Below are positions 5,988 to 27,624 of a DNA stretch of 64,000 nucleotides, piece by piece. Source of the stretch: Actinoallomurus sp. (GTDB lineage: Bacteria > Actinomycetota > Actinomycetes > Streptosporangiales > Streptosporangiaceae); assembly GCA_025964685.1 (NCBI GenBank), contig JAOPYG010000461.1, positions 1 through 64,000 of the forward strand. The letters run 5' to 3'. The first letter of the stretch is position 1. Every line of letters begins with the position of its first letter. The position numbers were made by a program, and so were the translations under genes. The notes beneath the pieces were generated by a model. It did not search any database and was not told where the DNA came from. It saw only the letters and a list, made by a program, of their open reading frames with translations.

Positions 5988-7165
5988 CGGACCTCCTCTT
6001 TCCTTTGTACGGGCCACCAGCCCCGTTCCTCGGCGATGGACCCGTACATCCCGGTGATGTCGGAGACGAGGCGGCCGGGTCCGAACCGCTGTGTCGCGAA
6101 CGCCCGCGCCCGGCGGCCCATCTCGCGGCGAGCGGGGTCGTCGAGGAGCAGGCGCGCGGCCTGGCGGGCCAGCTCGCCGGCGTCGCACGGGGCGAGCAGG
6201 CCGGTGACACCGTCGTGCACGACCTCGGCCACGCTTCCGACGCGTGTGGCGACGACCGGTACGCCCGCCAGCCCGGCCTCGATCAGGGAGACCGGCATTC
6301 CCTCGTTGTCGGAGGTGAGCAGGGCCAGGTCGGCCGCCGCGTACACGGTCTCGACGTCGGACCGCCAGCCCACCGTCCGCATCGCGTTCCCGAACTCCCG
6401 AGCCGCCTCCGCGACCTGTCCGGCCGCGTCACCGCCCCCGCAGATCACGAACCGCACGCCGGGCACCAGCCGGCGCAGCTCGCGGGCGACCTCCATCAGC
6501 CGGTCGGGCCGCTTCACGCGGGTCAGCCGCCCGACGAACGCGACGACCGGGTCCTCACCGGGAACCCCGAGCGCGAGGCGCGCGGCGGCGCGGTCGGGCA
6601 GCGTCCCGAGCGTGGTGCCCGGCGGCACCACGGCGTACTGGCCGGGGCGGCCGATGCCGGCGGCGATGAGCTCGTCGCGCACGCGTGTGCCGACGGCGAC
6701 GAGACGGTCGCTGACCATGGCCGACATCCGTTCGGTGCCCACCACCAGCCGCGTCTTCGCCGGCGAGAAGTATCCGTACAGCAGATGCCCGTGGTAGGTG
6801 TGAACGCGCACCGGCACCCGCGCGAGCACGGCCGCGGTTCGTCCCAGCAGACCGGCCTTGGCGGTGTGGGTGTGCACGATGTGCGGCCGGAACCTCCGCA
6901 TCTCGGCGACCAGTGACGCGACCGCCCGCGCGTCGCCGGCGGGCCGCACGGAGCGGCCGAGCGTCGCCACCCGGTGCGGGATGATGTCGCGCGCGCGCAG
7001 GTCCAGGTAGTCGGCCTCGCCCGGCTCCACCACCCCGGTGTAGAGGCGCTGCTCGAACCGTTCCGGATCCAGCCCGCGCATCAGGATGCTGGTCTGGAGG
7101 GCCGGTCCGCCGACGTTCATCCGCGCGATGACGCGCATCACCCTGATGCGCTCGGTGCCGGTCAC
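5984..7165 (-). CDS. GT4-family glycosyltransferase
   Basis: The 393-residue cytoplasmic GT-B enzyme adds one sugar to the lipid-linked repeat unit. It shows the N-terminal glycine loop (MNVGGPALQ, about residues 15-23), a VHTHTAKAGLLGR strand, GRLTRVKRPDRL at the start of the C-terminal domain, and the donor-binding E-x7-E region EGMPVSLIEAG (about 300). The C-terminus EERGWWPVQRKEEVR is charged. The donor and acceptor cannot be told from sequence. The gene is coupled by ATGA overlaps to the SDR genes on both sides, placing it firmly in the precursor/assembly operon. Confidence 0.9.
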   Translation of the reverse strand: MTGTERIRVMRVIARMNVGGPALQTSILMRGLDPERFEQRLYTGVVEPGEADYLDLRARDIIPHRVATLGRSVRPAGDARAVASLVAEMRRFRPHIVHTHTAKAGLLGRTAAVLARVPVRVHTYHGHLLYGYFSPAKTRLVVGTERMSAMVSDRLVAVGTRVRDELIAAGIGRPGQYAVVPPGTTLGTLPDRAAARLALGVPGEDPVVAFVGRLTRVKRPDRLMEVARELRRLVPGVRFVICGGGDAAGQVAEAAREFGNAMRTVGWRSDVETVYAAADLALLTSDNEGMPVSLIEAGLAGVPVVATRVGSVAEVVHDGVTGLLAPCDAGELARQAARLLLDDPARREMGRRARAFATQRFGPGRLVSDITGMYGSIAEERGWWPVQRKEEVR

Positions 7166-19108: not shown

Positions 19109-20107
19109 GTGGCGGATGAGGACGACCGGCCCCTGCGTCCCGGGAGATGGCCGCTGCGGCCGGTGCCGCGCTCTCGATGGTCGGCCCAGAGACCGACGGT
19201 GGACGACGCGGACCCGGCACTGATCACGGCGGCGCTCAAGCGCGCCCAGGCGCGGCCGTCGGGCAACTGGTTCGTGGTCGCGGCGAGCGATGACGTACGG
19301 GCCGACCGGCCGTTCGGCGCCAGGGTGACGGGGCGGGAGATCGTCCTGTGGCGGGACCGTACGGGAGCGCCGGTGGCCGGGCCGGGCGCGTGCCCGCATC
19401 TCGGCGCACCTCTGGCGCGGGGACGGGTGGCGGACGGCTGCCTGACGTGCCGATGGCACGGGCTGCGCCTGCCCGCGGAGGGCACGGAAGAGTGGCGCCC
19501 GCTGCCCGCCTATGACGACGGGGTGCTCGTCTGGGTGCGCCTCGACCCGTCCGGCGGTGAGGCGCCGCTCGACGAGCCGGTGCCGGCGGCCCGGCCGCGG
19601 CCGGAGGGCGCAGTCGGGGCGGTCGCCCGCATGGTGGGGGTCTGCGAGCCCGGCGACGTCGTCGCGAACCGCCTCGATCCCTGGCACGGCGCCTGGTTCC
19701 ATCCGTACTCCTTCACTCACCTCCGGGTCGAGTCGACGCCGGACGAGGCCGATGACCGGTTCCTGGTGCGGGTGACCTTCCGGGTCGGCCCGTGGCTCGG
19801 CGTCCCGGTGCTGGCCGACTTCAGCTGCCCGGACCCCCGCACGGTGCTGATGCGCATCGTCGAGGGTGAGGGCGAGGGCAGCGTCGTGGAGACGCACGCG
19901 ACCCCGCTCGGCCCCGGCCGCGACGGCCGTCCCCGTACGGCGGTGATCGAGGCGGTGGTCGCGACGTCGGACCGGCCGGGGTTCGCGGTGGCGCGGGTCG
20001 CGGCGCCGTTGCTGCGGCCGATGATGCGGCGTGCGGCGAGCCGTCTGTGGCGCGACGACCTGGCGTACGCCGAGCGGCGTTACGCGCTGCGTTCCGGCAC
20101 GGTCTGA
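19109..20107 (+). CDS. Rieske [2Fe-2S] protein beside the carotenoid cluster
   Basis: The 332-residue protein has a Rieske motif CPHLGAPLARG...CLTCRWHG (C-x-H and C-x2-H) at about residues 95-120. A C-terminal region of about 190 residues contains DPWHGAWFHPYSFTHLRV, a likely non-haem iron or START-like oxygenase-type domain. The domain arrangement resembles Rieske proteins that modify carotenoid ends, such as the CruH type of cyanobacterial synechoxanthin synthesis; that comparison is from memory. GTG 19109 is chosen because AAGGAGGGG is nine bases upstream; the frame is open for 56 more codons without signal. It converges on the crtU-like gene, overlapping its 3' end by 28 bp. Oxidation of the aromatic carotenoid is inferred. 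Confidence 0.8.
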   Translation: MADEDDRPLRPGRWPLRPVPRSRWSAQRPTVDDADPALITAALKRAQARPSGNWFVVAASDDVRADRPFGARVTGREIVLWRDRTGAPVAGPGACPHLGAPLARGRVADGCLTCRWHGLRLPAEGTEEWRPLPAYDDGVLVWVRLDPSGGEAPLDEPVPAARPRPEGAVGAVARMVGVCEPGDVVANRLDPWHGAWFHPYSFTHLRVESTPDEADDRFLVRVTFRVGPWLGVPVLADFSCPDPRTVLMRIVEGEGEGSVVETHATPLGPGRDGRPRTAVIEAVVATSDRPGFAVARVAAPLLRPMMRRAASRLWRDDLAYAERRYALRSGTV

Positions 20108-21591
20108 GCCCGCCGGCGCAGGCGCGGCGGGGTGAGGCGGCCACGTGTGGGCACGGTCGTCAGCGGATGCCCGGCCAGGCCCCAGCCGGACAGCAGCAGG
20201 TTGGCCGCGTGCCATCCGGTCGTGGCGGCGCGTTCCATCAGCGCCACCGGCAGGTCGATCCGGATACCGTCGCCGGCCAGCATCAGCCCCGGCGTCGGGC
20301 CGGCCACCGTCGGCCGGTCGGCGAAGGTGCCCGGGGCGAACAGCGGGCAGTCGGCGTGCCACTCGGAGAACTCGCCCACCACGGAGGCGGCCGCGGTCTC
20401 CGGATACAGGTCGTGCAGCCGGTCCAGCAGGCGCGCGGAGATCTCGCCCTGTGGTCCTGCCGCCGCGTAGGCATGCAGTTCGACCACCGAGCCGCCGGTC
20501 GCGTCGGCCCATGCCGCCGCCTCGCGGTCGTACCGCTCCAGCACGCTGATGTTGTCCAGCGGTGCGAGGCCGCCGGCGGCGAGAAAGGCGGGCCGGTCCG
20601 CGGCGACGGGCCGGTCCAGCCACAGCCGGCGGACCAGGAACGGCGGCGCCGTCGACAGGGCGGCGATCCGCCGCCGCCAGTCGGGGGTGCCGAGCGCGGG
20701 CGAGGCGGCGATCAGCGAGCGCAGTCCCGGCACGTCGAGGGCCAGCACGAGGGCGTCGGCGCGCAGGGTCTCGTCGTCGAGGTCCACCGCGAACCCTCCC
20801 GGCTCGGGCCGGACGGCGCCGACCGGCGCGCCGAGCCGCACCCGGCCGCCCAGCGCCGCCAGATGTTCGCCCAGCGGCGTCCACAGGCCGGGCAGCGGCA
20901 CATTCGGCACGTCGAACAGCAGCCCCTCGGACGAGCCGAGGAAGTACAGGTGGAACATGACCGCGAGCTCGGCCGCGGACAACCGGTCGGGCGGCGCGAA
21001 GAAGCTGCGGGAGAACACCTCGAAGGCCAGGTGGCGCGCTGCCGGCGGGAAACGCAGCCGGGCCAGGAACTCCTCGGCGTCCAGATGGTCCAGCCGCCGG
21101 TACGTCTCCGGCACGCTGACGTTCATCAGGGGCAGTGCCGCGCGAGCGTCCAATCGCAGCAGGTCACGCGGCTTGAAGGTGGGGCTGCGGAGGGCGAAGG
21201 CCAGGGCGTTCAACGGCGGGGTGCGGGGCAGGCCGCGGAAGGTGTCGGTGCGGCCCTTCGCGTCGATGAGGGGATAGTCCGGAACGGCGGTGAGCCGGCT
21301 CAGGTCCGGATCCGTCCGGCGTAGCAGCGTGCGCAGGTTGTAGTACTGACGGAAGAACGCGTGGAAACCGCGGCTCATGCCCACGCCGGTGCCGTCGGGC
21401 AGCGTCTCGGTCCAGCCGCCGGCCCGGCCACCGAGATGGTCGCGGCGCTCGCACAGGTCAACGGTGACGCCGCGTTCGGCCAGGGCGATCGCGGCCGTGA
21501 GCCCGGCGATCCCGGCGCCGACCACGACCGCGCGGGGGCGCCGGGGCAGCAGCCCGGCGTCGCGCGCCCCGCGGGGCGGGGCGTGGCGCAC
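20080..21591 (-). CDS. crtU: CrtU-like FAD-dependent carotenoid desaturase/methyltransferase (isorenieratene synthase type)
   Basis: The 503-residue FAD protein starts a few residues before the dinucleotide motif AVVVGAGIAGLTAAIALAERG and contains GGRAGGW. It then has the diagnostic MSRGFHAFFRQYYNLRTLL segment, FSRSFFAPPDRLSAAEL, and GLLFDVPNVPLPGLWTPLG, closing with MLAGDGIRIDLPVALMERA. In actinomycetes this subfamily converts beta-ionone ends of carotenoids to aromatic phi-ends. It is the last gene of the minus-strand crt run after crtYc/crtYd. The start is uncertain: GTG 21591 lies 217 bp inside the preceding methyltransferase reading frame and has no clear ribosome binding site. A frameshift at the junction is possible. 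Confidence 0.78.
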   Translation of the reverse strand: MRHAPPRGARDAGLLPRRPRAVVVGAGIAGLTAAIALAERGVTVDLCERRDHLGGRAGGWTETLPDGTGVGMSRGFHAFFRQYYNLRTLLRRTDPDLSRLTAVPDYPLIDAKGRTDTFRGLPRTPPLNALAFALRSPTFKPRDLLRLDARAALPLMNVSVPETYRRLDHLDAEEFLARLRFPPAARHLAFEVFSRSFFAPPDRLSAAELAVMFHLYFLGSSEGLLFDVPNVPLPGLWTPLGEHLAALGGRVRLGAPVGAVRPEPGGFAVDLDDETLRADALVLALDVPGLRSLIAASPALGTPDWRRRIAALSTAPPFLVRRLWLDRPVAADRPAFLAAGGLAPLDNISVLERYDREAAAWADATGGSVVELHAYAAAGPQGEISARLLDRLHDLYPETAAASVVGEFSEWHADCPLFAPGTFADRPTVAGPTPGLMLAGDGIRIDLPVALMERAATTGWHAANLLLSGWGLAGHPLTTVPTRGRLTPPRLRRRAQTVPERSA

Positions 21592-22349
21592 CCGGCGCCG
21601 ATCCGTACCGGCCGCGACGTCGCGGCAAACGGCCGTCCGTCCGGCCCCAGGCCGCGGAAGGCGTGCACGATGCCCTTCTGCCAGCCGCTCATGGTGCCGG
21701 CACGCACGTCGGCGAACCCGGCACGGCGCAGCCGCTCGGTGAACTCCTCCGGTCCGTCGAAGTCCAGTGCGCTGCGCCACAGGTAGCGGTACAGGCTCGC
21801 GTCACCGGTCATGAGACGCCCGGCCGGAATGATGACCGTCCAGCACACCGTGTGCCAGATCAGCCGGGTCACCGGGCTGTCCCGCACCGAGTAGTCGTGC
21901 ACGACGAGCCGTCCGCCGGGCCGCAGGAGGGCGCGGAGCGATGCCAGTGTGGCGTCTGGGGCGGGCAGGTTGCGGATGAGGTACGCGGCGAAGATCCCGT
22001 CGAACGGCCCGGTCACGCCGGCGTCGGCGAGGTCCTCGACCCGGCCGTGCGTGAACTCCACGACGGCGGGCCACGTCTTGGCCCGCGCCTGGGCGAGCAT
22101 GCCCGCGGACGCGTCCAGGCCGACGACGCTTGCGCCGGGCATGGCGGCCAGCAGCGCCGCGGTGGAGGCGCCGGTGCCGCAGCCGACGTCGAGCAGCCGC
22201 AACGGCTCGTCGCTCCCGGCAAACCCGAACGCCCGGGCGGAGCGGCGCAGGTGCGCGTGATATCCGGGGTTCGCGCCGACGAGCCGGTCGTAGGCGGACG
22301 CGCCGCGGTCGAACGCCGCGGGCACCTGCCGGCGCACCAGGCGGGTCAC
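21375..22349 (-). CDS. Carotenoid-cluster SAM methyltransferase (CrtT/UbiE-like)
   Basis: The reading frame is 324 residues, but only about the first 235 look like a methyltransferase: SAM motif LLDVGCGTGASTAALLAAMPG (about residues 38-58), VVGLDASAGML, FDGIFAAYLIRNLP, LLRPGGRLVVHDYS and the terminal SGWQKGIVHAFRG. The remaining ~85 residues are an out-of-phase reading of the crtU 5' end, so the normal stop seems to be missing. A methyltransferase gene between lycopene cyclase and crtU also occurs in Streptomyces (crtY-crtT-crtU). GTG 22349 overlaps the crtYd stop as GTGA. The methyl acceptor is unknown. Confidence 0.75.
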   Translation of the reverse strand: MTRLVRRQVPAAFDRGASAYDRLVGANPGYHAHLRRSARAFGFAGSDEPLRLLDVGCGTGASTAALLAAMPGASVVGLDASAGMLAQARAKTWPAVVEFTHGRVEDLADAGVTGPFDGIFAAYLIRNLPAPDATLASLRALLRPGGRLVVHDYSVRDSPVTRLIWHTVCWTVIIPAGRLMTGDASLYRYLWRSALDFDGPEEFTERLRRAGFADVRAGTMSGWQKGIVHAFRGLGPDGRPFAATSRPVRIGAGCATPRPAGRATPGCCPGAPARSWSAPGSPGSRPRSPWPNAASPLTCASAATISVAGPAAGPRRCPTAPAWA

Positions 22350-22669
22350 CGGGCACCGTCCTCGTGGGCCGCCCGGCGTTCCCAGATGAGCAGGGTCGCG
22401 GTGACCAGGGCGAAGCCGAACAGGAAGTCCTCGATGGGAATGTCGAACGGCACGCGCACCCCGCTCAGCTGGTGCGGGTCGTAGCTGACGATCGGCGCGG
22501 ACAGCTTGGTCAGCCATCCGTCGACCGCGACCTGGAAGCCGAAGACGATCGCCATCGTGATCCAGTACGCCCGCCGACGGAACAGCCCGGTGCGCAGCCG
22601 GCCGAGCTCCAGCGCGACCACCGCCGCCACCGAGACGACGGCCGGGAGTGTGTAGCCCAGCCCGGTCAT
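22346..22669 (-). CDS. crtYd: Lycopene beta-cyclase subunit, CrtYd
   Basis: The 107-residue membrane protein has three hydrophobic segments and the C-terminal signature PFDIPIEDFLFGFALVTATLL, the conserved motif (IPIEDxxF) of heterodimeric lycopene cyclases. Such cyclases need two small subunits, CrtYc and CrtYd, to close the beta-ionone rings of lycopene. The ATG overlaps the crtYc stop as ATGA (22666-22669) and its own stop overlaps the methyltransferase start, so expression is tightly coupled. Its tandem position after a paralogous subunit supports the assignment. Confidence 0.87.
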   Translation of the reverse strand: MTGLGYTLPAVVSVAAVVALELGRLRTGLFRRRAYWITMAIVFGFQVAVDGWLTKLSAPIVSYDPHQLSGVRVPFDIPIEDFLFGFALVTATLLIWERRAAHEDGAR

Positions 22670-23007
22670 CGCGCGTTCTCCTCACGTGCCTTCGCGCGCC
22701 GGTCCGGCGCCAGCCGCCGTACGGTCTCGAGCGTCAGCACGGCGCAGATCGGGATGACGAGGAAGAACAGCGCCTCCTCCAGCGGCAGTGACAGCGGCAG
22801 GGCGACGCCGGTGACATAGCGGGGGTTGTAGTCCCACACGCCCGCCGCGATGGCGATGACGTCCCACACCGCGAACACCGCCGCGACGGGGAGTACGGCG
22901 CGTGCCAGCCGGCCGGGCCGCCGGTAGACGCGGCTGCCGGACAGCTCCAGCGGCAGCGTGACCGCCGCGCACCCGGCGAGCAGCAGCAGATACTGCAGAT
23001 GGTCCAT
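22666..23007 (-). CDS. crtYc: Lycopene beta-cyclase subunit, CrtYc
   Basis: This 113-residue protein has three membrane helices (about residues 4-20, 35-55 and 75-95) and the motif LPLSLPLEEALFFLVIPICAV, the PLEExxF signature shared with CrtYd and fungal bifunctional cyclases. WDYNPRYVTG precedes it, as in other CrtYc proteins. ATG 23007 has AAAGGA about seven bases upstream; an 88-codon in-frame extension is only a shadow of crtB. The cyclase comes right after crtB (23-bp gap) and before crtYd (4-bp overlap), as in the Brevibacterium-type order crtB-crtI-crtYc-crtYd-crtU, although crtI is first here. Confidence 0.87.
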   Translation of the reverse strand: MDHLQYLLLLAGCAAVTLPLELSGSRVYRRPGRLARAVLPVAAVFAVWDVIAIAAGVWDYNPRYVTGVALPLSLPLEEALFFLVIPICAVLTLETVRRLAPDRRAKAREENAR

Positions 23008-23029: not shown

Positions 23030-23983
23030 TCACGGGGTCTGCTCGACCGGAGCCGTACGCGTGCGCGCCCACATCGAACGCGCGACGGCGCCCCCGGCGA
23101 GTGCCAGCCTGCGGCCGATGCCCACGGAGACGCGCCCGGCGAAGACGTTGTACCCGTGGGCCTCGATGCGGTCGAGGATGTGGGAGTAGAGGGTGAAGGC
23201 CGTCGCCACGCAGGGCCGCGACGTCGGGTGCAGCAGGGCGATGCCGGGCCGGGCCCGCTGGTAGACCGCACGCGTCCGCGCGATCTGGTCGGCGAGCGCG
23301 CGCCGTACCCTCGGCTCGACCTGGCGGGTCCGCCGGCACCACGAGAGCACCTCCCGGTCGACCCCGAACGCCGCGAGCTCGTCGGCGGGCAGGTACACCC
23401 GGCCCCGGTCGAGGTCCTCCGCCACGTCGCGCAGGAAGTTGGTCAGCTGGAACGCCTGGCCGAGCGCGGCCGCTCTCGGGGCGGCCTCGGCCGGATCCCC
23501 CACGGTGCCGAGCACGGGCAGTAACTGCAGGCCGATGACCTCGGCCGAGCCGTAGACGTACTCCTGCAGCGCGGCCCGGGTCGGGTAGTCGGTGACGCTG
23601 AGGTCCATCCGCATCGAGCGCAGGAAGGCGGCGAACAGGCCGCCGTCGATGCCGAACCGGACGGCGGTGTCCACGACCGCCGCGAGCACCGGATCGTCGG
23701 CCCGGCCGGCGCGCAGGCCGGCGTCGAGGGTCTCGCCGAGATGGTCGAGGGCGGCGAAGAGGTCGCCGGGTGCCGTGCCCGGGGCGGGCTCGTCGACGAT
23801 GTCGTCGGCGTGACGGGCGAAGCCGTACAGGGCGTGGATCGCGGGTCGCCGGGCGGGCGGCAGCAGCCGGGTCGCCAGGAAGAACGTGCGACCGTGCTCG
23901 GCGTTGAGAATCCGGCACCGGGTGTAGGCATCCTGGAGTGACGGGTCGGTGATCCCGGCGGCGCCCAGCTCGCGCCCGGTCAT
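23030..23983 (-). CDS. crtB: Phytoene synthase
   Basis: The 317-residue squalene/phytoene synthase joins two geranylgeranyl diphosphates to phytoene. Both Asp-rich metal sites are present: RHADDIVDE (about residues 52-60) and DVAEDLDRGRVYLP (about 180-193). The family signature YVYGSAEVIGLQLLPVLG and QLTNFLRD are also present, as is RTFFLATRLLPPARRPAIHALYGF. The length is normal. ATG 23983 overlaps the crtI stop as ATGA. Of the lycopene precursor genes, only the geranylgeranyl diphosphate synthase gene (crtE) is missing from this cluster and must lie elsewhere. Confidence 0.95.
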   Translation of the reverse strand: MTGRELGAAGITDPSLQDAYTRCRILNAEHGRTFFLATRLLPPARRPAIHALYGFARHADDIVDEPAPGTAPGDLFAALDHLGETLDAGLRAGRADDPVLAAVVDTAVRFGIDGGLFAAFLRSMRMDLSVTDYPTRAALQEYVYGSAEVIGLQLLPVLGTVGDPAEAAPRAAALGQAFQLTNFLRDVAEDLDRGRVYLPADELAAFGVDREVLSWCRRTRQVEPRVRRALADQIARTRAVYQRARPGIALLHPTSRPCVATAFTLYSHILDRIEAHGYNVFAGRVSVGIGRRLALAGGAVARSMWARTRTAPVEQTP

Positions 23984-25515
23984 CGTCGCCCTGCGGGCTC
24001 GGCGGCACGCCGCGGCCGCAGGTCCGGCGCGCCCGTGATGCGGTCCGCGGCCAGCCGCCCCGAAAGCAGCGCGGTCGGGACGCCGACGCCGGGCACGGTG
24101 CCGCAGCCGGCCAGCACCGCGTTGTCCGTCGTACGGGGAAGGTTGGCGGGACGGAAGGGACCGGTCTGCCCGAACGTGTGCGCCAGGCTGAACGGCGTTC
24201 CGGCGATCAGCCCCTGGCGGTTCCAGTCGGCGGGGGTGATGACGTGCAGAGTCTCGGTCCTTCCGCGCAGGCCGGACCGCTCGGCCATGAGACCGACCAG
24301 TTCGTCCGCGTACTCCCCGCCGATCCGATCCCAGTCGAGCCGGCCGCGGGCGAGGTTGGGCGTGGGGGCGAGCACCGACACGAGCTGCCGCCCGGAGGGG
24401 GCAAGTGCCGGGTCCGTGGCGGTGGGACGGGTCAGCAGCAGCGAGGGGTCCCGCATCAGCCGGCCGTCGCGGATGAGCTCGTCGAAGGTCGTCCGCCACG
24501 CGTCGCCGAACAGCAGGTTGTGGTGTGCGGTGCCGCCGGTGTCCTCTCCCGCGTCGCCGGACACGCCGAGGTGCACGACGACCGCCGACGGCGCGGCCAT
24601 CAGCGGGAACGGACGCCGGGGAACGTAGCCGAGCAGCCGGTAGGCGGCCGGCAGTTCACAGGTCAGGACGACGGCGTCACAGGGGACCCGCTCGCCGTCG
24701 GTCGTGAGCGCGGCGGTGACCCGGCGGTCGCGGCGTTCCAGCGCCGACACGGTCGTGCCGTAGCGGAACTCCACGCCGGCATCCGAGGCGGCGCCGGCCA
24801 GGGCGTCGGGCACCGCCCGCATCCCACCGCGCGGGAAGTACACACCGCCGACCGTGTCCATGTAGGCGATCACCGCGTACAGCGCCAGCGCGCGGCGCGG
24901 CGGCAGCCCCGCGTACAGCGCCTGGAAGGTGAAGACGCGCCGTAGCCGCTCGTCGTGGAGGAACCGGCCGACCGCGCGCTCCCAGCGGCCGAAGCCGCCC
25001 AGCGCCGCCAGCCTCGCCAGCTGCGGGGTGAGCAGTCCGAGCGGCGAGTCGACGTTCGCGGCGATGAAGCCTGAGTACTCCACGTCGTACAGCCGGGTGA
25101 GCCAGTCGCGCAGCCGCGCGTACCCGGCCGCCTCACGCGGGCCGGCGAACGCGCGGACCGCCTCGATCATGGCGTCACGGTCGGTCCGCACGTCCAGCGA
25201 CGTGCCGTCCGCGAACGACGCGCGATAGGCCGGATCCAGACGTACCAGCGGCAGCCGGTCGGTCAGCGAGGCCCCGACGGCCTCGAGCGTGTCCCCCACG
25301 ATGTCGGGCATCGTGAGCACGGTCGGCCCAGTGTCCAGCCGGTACCCGCTCACGTCCAGGCGCCCTGCCCGGCCGCCCGGGACGGCGTCGCGCTCCAGCA
25401 CCGTCACGGTCCTGCCGCGCCCGCACAGATGCAGGGCGGCCGCCAGTCCGGACAGGCCCGCGCCGACCACGACCACGTGATCGGTTCTGCCCGGAACGGT
25501 CGAACGGTGCGTCAT
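23980..25515 (-). CDS. crtI: Phytoene desaturase
   Basis: The 511-residue FAD enzyme converts phytoene to lycopene. The N-terminal dinucleotide motif HVVVVGAGLSGLAAALHL (about residues 12-29), GGRAGRL and DTGPTVLTMPD are typical, as is the C-terminal carotenoid dehydrogenase signature region (AGCGTVPGVGVPTALLSGRLAADRI). TGGVYFPRGGMRAV matches bacterial CrtI. ATG 25515 is used because the conserved fold starts soon after; the ribosome binding site (AAGGG) is weak and slightly distant. It is the first gene of the minus-strand crt operon, and its promoter region contains GGTGATCAAAAAG on the coding strand. Confidence 0.95.
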   Translation of the reverse strand: MTHRSTVPGRTDHVVVVGAGLSGLAAALHLCGRGRTVTVLERDAVPGGRAGRLDVSGYRLDTGPTVLTMPDIVGDTLEAVGASLTDRLPLVRLDPAYRASFADGTSLDVRTDRDAMIEAVRAFAGPREAAGYARLRDWLTRLYDVEYSGFIAANVDSPLGLLTPQLARLAALGGFGRWERAVGRFLHDERLRRVFTFQALYAGLPPRRALALYAVIAYMDTVGGVYFPRGGMRAVPDALAGAASDAGVEFRYGTTVSALERRDRRVTAALTTDGERVPCDAVVLTCELPAAYRLLGYVPRRPFPLMAAPSAVVVHLGVSGDAGEDTGGTAHHNLLFGDAWRTTFDELIRDGRLMRDPSLLLTRPTATDPALAPSGRQLVSVLAPTPNLARGRLDWDRIGGEYADELVGLMAERSGLRGRTETLHVITPADWNRQGLIAGTPFSLAHTFGQTGPFRPANLPRTTDNAVLAGCGTVPGVGVPTALLSGRLAADRITGAPDLRPRRAAEPAGRR

Positions 25516-25922
25516 GCCGCACGAACTACCCTTTTTGATCACCGGGATAACACGACTCGTCGCCTTCAAGGCGCGGGCCGGCGCTGACACGGTTCACGTC
25601 GCGTGGCTGACCAGCCAGATCCGCTCAGCCGCCGATGCGATGTGACGGGAAGAGACCTGACGGGACTGCGGTACGGACGTTTCGGAGGAAGTACCCCAAA
25701 TCGGTGTATTGACCACCCAAGTAGGGGATGACCCGCAAGGAAGCAGTCCGGTACCGGGCTGCGTCATGCAGGGGTAAGGGGCCAAGCGCAGCGTGAACGG
25801 CACCGTGGGGGCGGTGTGCGCCATCTCACCTCGCCGGGCCCGGAGTAGCGTGGGAGTCACGGCGTTGATGCGCCGTCGCGGTCCAACAGCGAGGCCGCCC
25901 CACCATTGTTCGAGGGGGCTGC
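25516..25922. promoter_or_regulatory. Divergent region between crtI and the STAS gene
   Basis: About 407 bp with no convincing gene; an 88-codon minus frame here has no family features. On the crtI strand GGTGATCAAAAAG (plus-strand positions 25531-25543) lies 16 bp from the crtI ATG. Further upstream, 25690-25735 is AT-richer and contains TTGACC (25705-25710) followed by CACCCAAGTAGGGG, which may belong to a promoter or operator. The STAS gene has GAGGGGG before its ATG. Confidence 0.4.
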
Positions 25923-26369
25923 ATGGTTCGGACCGTGGCTTTGGATCTACCGACCTGGCACACCAGCCAATACGTGGTCGTGACGCTGCCGGGGGAGGTC
26001 GACGGGGCGAATGCGGACGTCGTACGGCAACACCTGCTCACCGTGCTCAACGCCGGTGGTCCCGGCGCGGGTCCGCTCATCGCCGACCTGACCGGCACGA
26101 CGTTCTGCGATTCATCGGCGATCAACGCGCTGCTGCGGGCGAACACCCGGGCCGGCGCGCTGGGCCGGAGGTTGTACGCGGCGGTCCCGCCCGGCGGAGT
26201 CGTCCGGAAGGTCTTTGATATCACCGGCATTCCGCGCGCGATAACCGTCTGCGACGACATCGGCTCCGCGATCGCCGCGGCCGTCGTCGCCGCGTTGGAC
26301 GACGCTCAGGCCGGTGAGCCGGCCGGTGCGCCCCGAACTCCCGGGGGCGATGACGGATCCCTTCGATGA
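25923..26369 (+). CDS. STAS-domain anti-sigma-factor antagonist
   Basis: The 148-residue protein has a STAS domain over about residues 15-115. The phosphorylation-site region is GTTFCDSSAINALLRA, with the DSS serine as the likely target, followed by a GGVVRKVFDITG strand-helix. About 30 disordered C-terminal residues follow. STAS antagonists bind anti-sigma kinases when dephosphorylated and so release a sigma factor. The gene ends inside the phosphatase gene (20-bp overlap), so the phosphatase that would reactivate it is made in the same operon. No anti-sigma kinase gene is nearby. ATG 25923 follows GAGGGGG. Confidence 0.88.
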   Translation: MVRTVALDLPTWHTSQYVVVTLPGEVDGANADVVRQHLLTVLNAGGPGAGPLIADLTGTTFCDSSAINALLRANTRAGALGRRLYAAVPPGGVVRKVFDITGIPRAITVCDDIGSAIAAAVVAALDDAQAGEPAGAPRTPGGDDGSLR

Positions 26370-27624
26370 CGCGCTGACCGGCCGGGTTCTCGCGGAGCTG
26401 CTGGACCGCTCCCATCTCATGGGACCCGCGGACCTGGCCCGCCAGCTCACGGAGGCGGCCCGGCCGCTGGGCTTCTCGGCCGTACGGATCTACCTCGCCG
26501 ACCTGCAACAGCAGCGCCTGAGTGCGATGCCCGACGGTAACGGGCCCGAACGCTCGCCACTGGCGATCGACTCGACGCTGGCCGGGCGGGCCTTCCAGAC
26601 CATCAGCATCCAGCGTGCCGCCGTGGAGGAGTCCACCGGGGAGCACCGGCTGTGGGTGCCGCTGGTCAACGGCACCGAGCGTCTGGGCGTGATGGAGATG
26701 TGCGTCGCCGAGAGGCCGCCCGGTGACGCCGATGGCGTGGACCTCCTGGACGTGGGCCTGGATGAGAAGGTGATGCTGGAGCGGTGCCGGACGCTCGCGT
26801 CGCTCGCCGCCCTCATCATCGAGAGCAAGAACGTGTACAGCGACAGCTACGCGGCGATCCAGCGCAGCCGTGAGATGACGGTGCAGGCCGAGATGGTGTG
26901 GGCGTTCATGGTGCCGCGTACGTTCGCGACCGGCCGGGTGCTGCTGGCGGCGGCCCTGGAGCCGGCGTACGAGGTCGGCGGCGACGCGTTCGAGTATTCG
27001 CTGCTCGGCGACTGCATGCACGTATCGGTCTTCGACTCGGTCGGCCACGACCTGACCGCCGGCCTCATCTCGAGCGTCGCGATGGCCTCCTGCCGCACCG
27101 CTCGTCGCGCCGGCGGTGACCTGCCCGAGATGGCCGCCCGCGCCGACCACGCCATCGCCGACCAGTTCGGCGCCTCGCGGTTCGCGACCGCGCTGCTGTG
27201 CGAGCTGGACACCGCCACGGGCGAGTTCCGCTGGCTGCCGTGCGGTCATCCGCCTCCGCTGCTCATCCGCGACAGCAGGGTGATCAAAGAACTGCTCCGG
27301 GAGCCCCGCCTGCCTTTGGGGTTGAACGAAGACCACGTCGGCGACGTCGGCGTCTACACCGAACACTTGCAGCCCGGCGACCGGCTCCTCCTCTACACCG
27401 ACGGAGTGGTCGAGGGGCGTGCCGCCGACGGCCGGGAGTTCGGCCTGGCCCGGTTGAGCGACTTCGTGATCCGCAACAGCGCCGAAGGCCTGCCCGCGCC
27501 GGAGACACTGCGGCGCCTCAACCGCGCGATCCTGCAGTACCAGCAGGGACGCGTGCGCGACGACGCCACCGTCGTGCTCGTGGAATGGCTACCCCAGCAC
27601 CCCGAACACGACCTCACCATTTAG
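26350..27624 (+). CDS. SpoIIE/RsbU-type PP2C phosphatase with N-terminal GAF-like domain
   Basis: The 424-residue protein has an N-terminal GAF-like sensory domain (about residues 15-165) and a linker helix with QAEMVWAFMVPRTFATG. A C-terminal SpoIIE domain follows, with metal-binding motifs EVGGDAFEY, FDSVGHDLTAGL, LPCGHPPPLLI and LLLYTDGVVEGR. It should dephosphorylate the STAS antagonist encoded just before it, with activity set by the GAF-like input. GVMEMCVAERPPG and the conserved dimer helix are intact. ATG 26350 is preceded by GGGGG; the frame opens 12 codons earlier without a start signal. The HATPase kinase domain sometimes fused to such proteins is absent. Confidence 0.9.
   Translation: MTDPFDDALTGRVLAELLDRSHLMGPADLARQLTEAARPLGFSAVRIYLADLQQQRLSAMPDGNGPERSPLAIDSTLAGRAFQTISIQRAAVEESTGEHRLWVPLVNGTERLGVMEMCVAERPPGDADGVDLLDVGLDEKVMLERCRTLASLAALIIESKNVYSDSYAAIQRSREMTVQAEMVWAFMVPRTFATGRVLLAAALEPAYEVGGDAFEYSLLGDCMHVSVFDSVGHDLTAGLISSVAMASCRTARRAGGDLPEMAARADHAIADQFGASRFATALLCELDTATGEFRWLPCGHPPPLLIRDSRVIKELLREPRLPLGLNEDHVGDVGVYTEHLQPGDRLLLYTDGVVEGRAADGREFGLARLSDFVIRNSAEGLPAPETLRRLNRAILQYQQGRVRDDATVVLVEWLPQHPEHDLTI

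Follow-up and report, generated by a model that had tools for sequence, protein, structure and literature searches.

A Rieske oxygenase gene of the DUF5914 family, paired with crtU in actinobacterial carotenoid clusters, as a candidate for hydroxylation of isorenieratene

Results

Organization of the Actinoallomurus crt cluster

The window analysed here is a 64,000-nucleotide stretch of DNA from Actinoallomurus sp. (contig JAOPYG010000461.1). A plus-strand open reading frame at positions 19109–20107, with a GTG start and a TGA stop, encodes a protein of 332 amino acids, which the reading frame and its Pfam matches identify as a Rieske non-heme iron oxygenase and which we designate CrtV. Pfam assigned a Rieske domain (PF00355, 61.4 bits) to residues 53–131 (window positions 19265–19501, plus strand) and a DUF5914 domain (PF19299, 310.3 bits against a cut-off of 27) to residues 149–330 (19553–20098, plus strand). 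The gene converges with crtU, which encodes β-carotene desaturase/methyltransferase (isorenieratene synthase) on the minus strand at 20080–21525, its start being uncertain (GTG at 21525 or 21591). The crtU stop lies at 20080, and the two genes overlap tail to tail by 28 bp (20080–20107). A reading of the same DNA from sequence only had described a Rieske gene convergent with an aromatic carotenoid cluster, and this description was borne out.

On the minus strand, crtU is followed by closely packed or overlapping genes in the order crtT, for a UbiE-type SAM methyltransferase (21375–22325; start uncertain, GTG at 22325 or 22337), crtYd (22346–22669) and crtYc (22666–23007), for two lycopene cyclase subunits (both PF18916), crtB, for phytoene synthase (23030–23983; PF00494, SQS_PSY), and crtI, for phytoene desaturase (23980–25515; TIGR02734, crtI_fam, 488.5 bits). 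A crtE gene was not seen among them, and the three polyprenyl synthetase matches of the genome are all located on other contigs. No redox partner adjoined crtV among the neighbours run through Pfam, which were a subset of the open reading frames of the window. The whole genome yielded 10 Rieske-domain matches and a single DUF5914 match, the latter being crtV.

The crtT frame extends approximately 150–217 bp into crtU in a different frame (21375–21591), farther than the match reaches in most relatives. A comparable overrun was observed in two other loci, L054 and L101, and it reflects either a natural overlap or a frameshift. Beyond crtI, the window encodes a STAS-domain protein and a SpoIIE-type phosphatase (25869–27624). 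In loci L045–L215 (E ≤ 1e-8), no counterpart of either was detected other than one 33% SpoIIE match in L068; these loci often stop 2–3 kb beyond crtI, so that a more distant link would escape. Given that the STAS/SpoIIE pair was absent from the other crt loci examined, a link between a stress regulator and the crt cluster was set aside.

A plasmid of S. anulatus carries crtE-I-B-V facing crtU-T-Y, with its DUF5914 gene situated after crtB in the place of V and convergent with crtU. From this position we equated the DUF5914 family with the gene named crtV, the identification being by place in the cluster. The plasmid protein shows 62.5% identity to Actinoallomurus CrtV, and CrtV of the Streptomyces crtEIBV/crtYTU clusters belongs to the same DUF5914 family. 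The arrangements differ, however, in that Actinoallomurus crtV stands alone opposite U-T-Yd-Yc-B-I whereas Streptomyces crtV ends an E-I-B-V operon, and in that the Actinoallomurus cluster has a two-subunit CrtYc/CrtYd cyclase and no visible crtE. The S. coelicolor crtV gene is listed in one source as a 'putative methylesterase' (PMC8539372, in the entry concerned), and a '2Fe-2S ferredoxin' that is perhaps a gene of the crtV family is listed for an isorenieratene cluster in another (PMC11998277, likewise in the relevant entry). Our searches of the open PMC literature found no paper on DUF5914 and none on a Rieske protein together with crtU and carotenoids.

Metal-binding motifs and predicted fold of CrtV

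CrtV contains both the C-x-H ... C-x2-H motif for a Rieske [2Fe-2S] centre (C95, H97, C114, and H117) and the D-x2-H-x4-H motif for a mononuclear iron (D190, H193, and H198). Among 83 CrtV proteins, C114, H117, D190, H193, and H198 were identical in all 83, and C95, H97, D316, and D317 were retained in at least 97%. All nine residues were invariant in two alignments, A1 (20 rows) and A2 (43 rows), the second of which was used for structure prediction.

The AlphaFold model of CrtV had a mean pLDDT of 86.5, with values below 50 for residues 196–200 at the iron site. Fold matches to the model spanned residues 48–332 and were headed by dicamba monooxygenase (3gke; Z of 21.8, 265 residues aligned, 3.4 Å), followed by guaiacol O-demethylase (7qwt; Z of 21.7, 268 residues aligned), GxtA and SxtT (Z near 20), and KshA (Z of 17–19), a group in which O-demethylases stand beside hydroxylases. 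These enzymes share the Rieske monooxygenase architecture with CrtV but are only 14–20% identical to it, and the COOH-terminal domain of CrtV forms a Pfam family of its own. In a sequence search against PDB chains, the Rieske part of CrtV alone was matched. Provided that the final helix aligns without gaps, the aligned ranges for the predicted model place D317 opposite the aspartate of dicamba monooxygenase that we take to be D294. Given that the model matches Rieske monooxygenases and that the motifs are conserved, the most plausible role of DUF5914 is that of the catalytic half in a Rieske oxygenase, and the motifs together with the predicted fold point to a one-subunit Rieske non-heme iron monooxygenase as the best reading of CrtV.

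Association of CrtV with CrtU

We examined a class sample of 394 evenly drawn Actinomycetes genomes, with the Actinoallomurus source genome counted in both of the following tallies. DUF5914 was present in 72 genomes and a CrtU match (E ≤ 1e-50) in 77; every one of the 72 DUF5914 genomes had a CrtU match, and 72 of the 77 CrtU genomes had DUF5914. With the source genome excluded, the starts of V and U lay no more than 15 kb apart on one contig in 67 of 71 DUF5914 genomes. For three of the remaining four (G161, G238, and G345), the DUF5914 match lay close to a contig end, no more than approximately 0.6 kb away, and CrtU was found on another contig, and the fourth (G253) had only a CrtU paralogue of 46% identity at a distance of 120 kb. 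V was present in 18 and CrtU in 20 of the 138 genera sampled, the genus-level numbers entered in the Fisher tests being 18, 0, 2, and 118. The genomes are not phylogenetically independent, and the Fisher tests ignore kinship. The linkage of V and U across the class is far beyond chance.

Two genome searches provided 82 loci around DUF5914 matches outside the source genome (four regions being widened to include crtU), and 81 of them contained another crt gene, the lone exception, L076, being a contig-end case. Another crt gene was also present in the stretch for 74 of the best 80 of at least 560 CrtV relatives in genome_contigs, a selection that leans toward close relatives. The other six of these 80 (L139, L141, L154, L158, L191, and L213) come from genomes that have CrtU elsewhere, at 59–69% identity. 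Homologues of the gene are thus located mostly inside crt loci, not outside them, the latter being the outcome that the sequence-only reading had counted as adverse. The same results show that actinobacterial crtU clusters include the DUF5914 Rieske gene as a rule, and the idea that it distinguishes the Actinoallomurus cluster from others found no support.

L139 and L141, from Prauserella endophytica and P. flavalba, encode CrtV proteins 70–71% identical to that of Actinoallomurus, with no crt gene within 8 kb and yet with a CrtU at 69% identity in the genome. Of the PLSDB records, 14 matched CrtV over 80% of its length, and exactly these 14 also matched CrtU (1e-20); the CrtV matches of 96 further records were all below 60% identity. 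A Nostoc plasmid gave a match of 25.5% identity in a region with a transposase. As this match was weak and had no annotated carotenoid gene nearby, it was dropped as a possible link to the cyanobacterial enzyme CruH.

Loci with a P450 in the place of CrtV or without a close CrtU

Five genomes of the class sample had CrtU without V. Two of them (G135 and G235) carried CrtU paralogues of 45% identity, and the 16.6 kb examined around them showed no further crt genes. The other three (G066, G155, and G384) belong to one genus, g69, the only sampled genus that combines a crt-cluster CrtU with the absence of CrtV, and possess crtI, crtB, crtT, and crtU, with no CrtV match anywhere in the genome at E ≤ 1e-5. 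All three encode a cytochrome P450 directly downstream of crtU and in the same direction, the slot that is held by V in Mycobacterium, where V follows U. A fourth g69 genome with CrtU (G454) has the same P450, at 95% identity, downstream of crtU and no CrtV in the 16 kb examined. CrtU was present in 4 of 49 genomes of this genus, and CrtT was retained in all four P450 loci. The P450 genes are located at 6755–8071 of L127, 6703–8010 of L128, 9369–10838 of L129, and 5937–7436 of L229; the last three are tblastn ranges, of which those in L129 and L229 begin inside the 3' end of crtU. Among the V-bearing loci of L045–L215, the g69 P450 was not found apart from a 26% match in L142. The CrtU proteins of G066, G155, and G384 fell in a clade with CrtV-bearing lineages with support of 100/100 (midpoint root; G454 left out). 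The simplest account of these gene arrangements would be that a P450 replaced the Rieske enzyme in genus g69. Either CrtV (71 genomes) or the P450 (3 genomes) was present in 74 of 74 class-sample genomes whose CrtU exceeded the 42–46% paralogue level, a cut set after the data were seen.

CrtU-like proteins at 45–46% identity were detected in G089, G334, G371, G387, G253, G135, and G235 and are distinct from the crt-cluster CrtU where a genome has both. In G253, a crtI-B-Yc-Yd-T-V cluster (L109, 3543–8615) lacks crtU between T and V, and its CrtV has C114, H117, D190, H193, and H198 intact. Actinoplanes sp. M2I2 has V and T, and the best CrtU in its genome is a 42% paralogue. The stretch concerned (L211, 4815–9929) encodes CrtV, CrtT, CrtYc/CrtYd, an RPE65-type carotenoid oxygenase, and a short-chain dehydrogenase, a gene content from which the product may be an oxygenated apocarotenoid.

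Distribution of CrtT

CrtT was judged within the loci already gathered, nearly all of which had been selected for having V. Among 152 loci with CrtU at an identity of at least 44%, a cut-off of our own choosing, 128 had both V and T, 21 had V without T, and 3 had T without V; restricting the count to loci in which 2 kb or more separate U from the end gave 102, 17, and 3. Among loci with both CrtU and V, CrtT was therefore absent from 21 of 149, or from 17 of 119 with the distance limit applied, counts in which some genomes appear twice, a divergent CrtT may escape, and 4 of the 21 T-less loci have U less than 2 kb from the end. That T is lost more readily than V suits action of V before T without proving that order. 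The presence of CrtT in the four P450 loci indicates that it is independent of V itself.

Discussion

We propose, with a probability of roughly two in three, that CrtV hydroxylates the ring of isorenieratene after the action of CrtU, likely at C-3, and that CrtT may then methylate the resulting phenol. In the scheme that we infer, electrons from a housekeeping ferredoxin or reductase would pass to the [2Fe-2S] centre of CrtV, and O2 would be activated at the mononuclear iron, with His193, His198, and Asp317 (or Asp316) as presumed ligands. CrtV would act after the desaturase CrtU on the aromatic end ring, with hydroxylation most likely at C-3 giving rise to 3-hydroxy- and 3,3'-dihydroxyisorenieratene.

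The products reported for a related cluster are consistent with this proposal. Expression of the S. argillaceus crta cluster in S. albus yielded, according to the parts of a 2018 report that describe the products, isorenieratene (leprotene), β-isorenieratene, 3-hydroxy- and 3,3'-dihydroxyisorenieratene, and three new methylated derivatives, of which the dimethylated one was the major product (PMC5993118). A whole cosmid was expressed in that study, known products were dereplicated, and the new ones were proposed from molecular formulas; the S. albus host has a carotenoid cluster of its own, and the vector control was unpigmented. CrtaV, which we liken to CrtV by its description there as a Rieske non-heme iron oxygenase encoded in crtaEIBV, was proposed by the authors as a candidate oxygenase, with CrtaT as a candidate methyltransferase (PMC5993118). 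The DUF5914 gene family and the product class are thus already known, and that proposal is the precedent for oxidative tailoring. Oxidative tailoring of the aromatic carotenoid, as advanced in the sequence-only reading, is upheld as an inference by the conserved motifs, the co-occurrence with CrtU, and the P450 in the CrtV slot, whereas the expected novelty of a polar product class was forestalled by the hydroxylated and methylated isorenieratenes of 2018. In Brevibacterium aurantiacum, according to the relevant passage of a review, isorenieratene is hydroxylated by a P450 (PMC12096840), which is said to perform the step that we propose for CrtV but is an unrelated haem enzyme.

Other functions of CrtV would fit parts of these observations. 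Oxidation of a ring methyl group to an alcohol, aldehyde, or carboxylic acid, in the manner of the cyanobacterial Rieske protein CruH in synechoxanthin synthesis, we regard as unlikely. CrtV does adjoin a CrtU-type desaturase, and several of the folds nearest to its model are demethylases by entry title, enzymes that attack methyl groups. CruH resembles our proposal for CrtV in oxidizing an aromatic carotenoid, a likeness drawn by description, and is described in the source concerned as converting a methyl group of renierapurpurin to a carboxylic acid (PMC8342508), in which respect it differs. The products that we found reported from a CrtV-bearing cluster are hydroxylated and methylated forms, not acids (PMC5993118, in its account of products), and a free phenol would supply CrtT with a substrate; the CruH-type outcome, from methyl to carboxyl, which the sequence-only reading had put forward, is without specific support. 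A slightly lower probability attaches to CrtV acting on the β-ring, either earlier than CrtU or at the same stage, or on some other intermediate of the carotenoid pathway, with no need for an aromatic ring. V and T are retained in G253 and Actinoplanes sp. M2I2 although neither has a close CrtU, which suggests that the substrate may not be strictly aromatic, and the carotenoid oxygenase and dehydrogenase genes of the Actinoplanes stretch point in the same direction. Some CrtU match was nevertheless present in every DUF5914 genome of the class sample, and in these two exceptions either V may accept non-aromatic rings or the 42–46% paralogue may stand in for CrtU.

It is also improbable that CrtV is an accessory to CrtU, clearing off-path intermediates or aiding aromatization, with isorenieratene as the end product. 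The near-fixed pairing of V with U and the similarity of their trees would be expected of such a helper, and most Streptomyces pathways, including that of S. griseus, are said to end at isorenieratene despite the presence of crtV (PMC5993118, in the passage on these pathways). However, S. griseus is reported to need neither crtT nor crtV for isorenieratene (Kruegel 1999, cited in a passage of PMC5993118), and the P450 that occupies the slot in another genus is more easily reconciled with an oxygenase step than with a helper specific to CrtU. Least probable of all is that CrtV serves some other metabolism as an ordinary Rieske protein and adjoins the crt cluster by chance. In a genome with 10 Rieske-domain matches, one near crt genes may mean little, but this one is the sole DUF5914 match, and in 18 genera the family follows the distribution of CrtU. 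Hydroxylation of the isorenieratene ring remains our preferred reading, although the demethylases among the related folds, the low pLDDT at the iron site, and the statement that most Streptomyces pathways end at isorenieratene weigh against it.

That pathways usually end at isorenieratene, as the sequence-only reading assumed for actinomycetes, is stated for most Streptomyces in the passage cited above, whereas the near-universal oxygenase in crtU clusters suggests that synthesis normally continues to an oxygenated pigment. In Streptomyces that stop at isorenieratene, either the oxygenase is silent or its products were missed. We lean, by little more than an even chance, toward isorenieratene being an intermediate in almost every member of the Actinomycetes whose CrtU belongs to a crt cluster and DUF5914 being a carotenoid-specific family of Rieske hydroxylases. 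The statement on Streptomyces pathways speaks against this view. If it is nevertheless true, the final pigment would be misnamed in many 'isorenieratene' annotations, from Streptomyces to Mycobacterium, and the label 'isorenieratene cluster' would appear to understate the products of these bacteria. Of most interest in the present analysis are the near-universal pairing of an oxygenase with CrtU and the exchange of Rieske enzyme and P450 beside crtU, the latter providing a natural control for function. DUF5914, a domain of unknown function, gains a concrete and testable role. CrtV could also be useful, given the statement that 3,3'-dihydroxyisorenieratene protects better against photo-oxidative damage than do other carotenoids (PMC5993118, in its remarks on this compound).

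The Actinoallomurus cluster has affinities outside its own family. In the CrtU tree, Actinoallomurus grouped with Pseudonocardiaceae (Prauserella, Amycolatopsis, and Saccharomonospora) with an SH-aLRT of 100, and with support of 97/98 in a second tree, and not with the rest of its own family as sampled. CrtV occupied a similar position, with Prauserella and Saccharomonospora, in a tree of 'quick' grade with support of 91 (below the mark of 95). U and V may have arrived together in Actinoallomurus. The order V facing U-T-Yd-Yc is shared with L147, L157, and L181 of the Pseudonocardiaceae group and is also present in L177 (Longimycelium), which is placed elsewhere in the trees.
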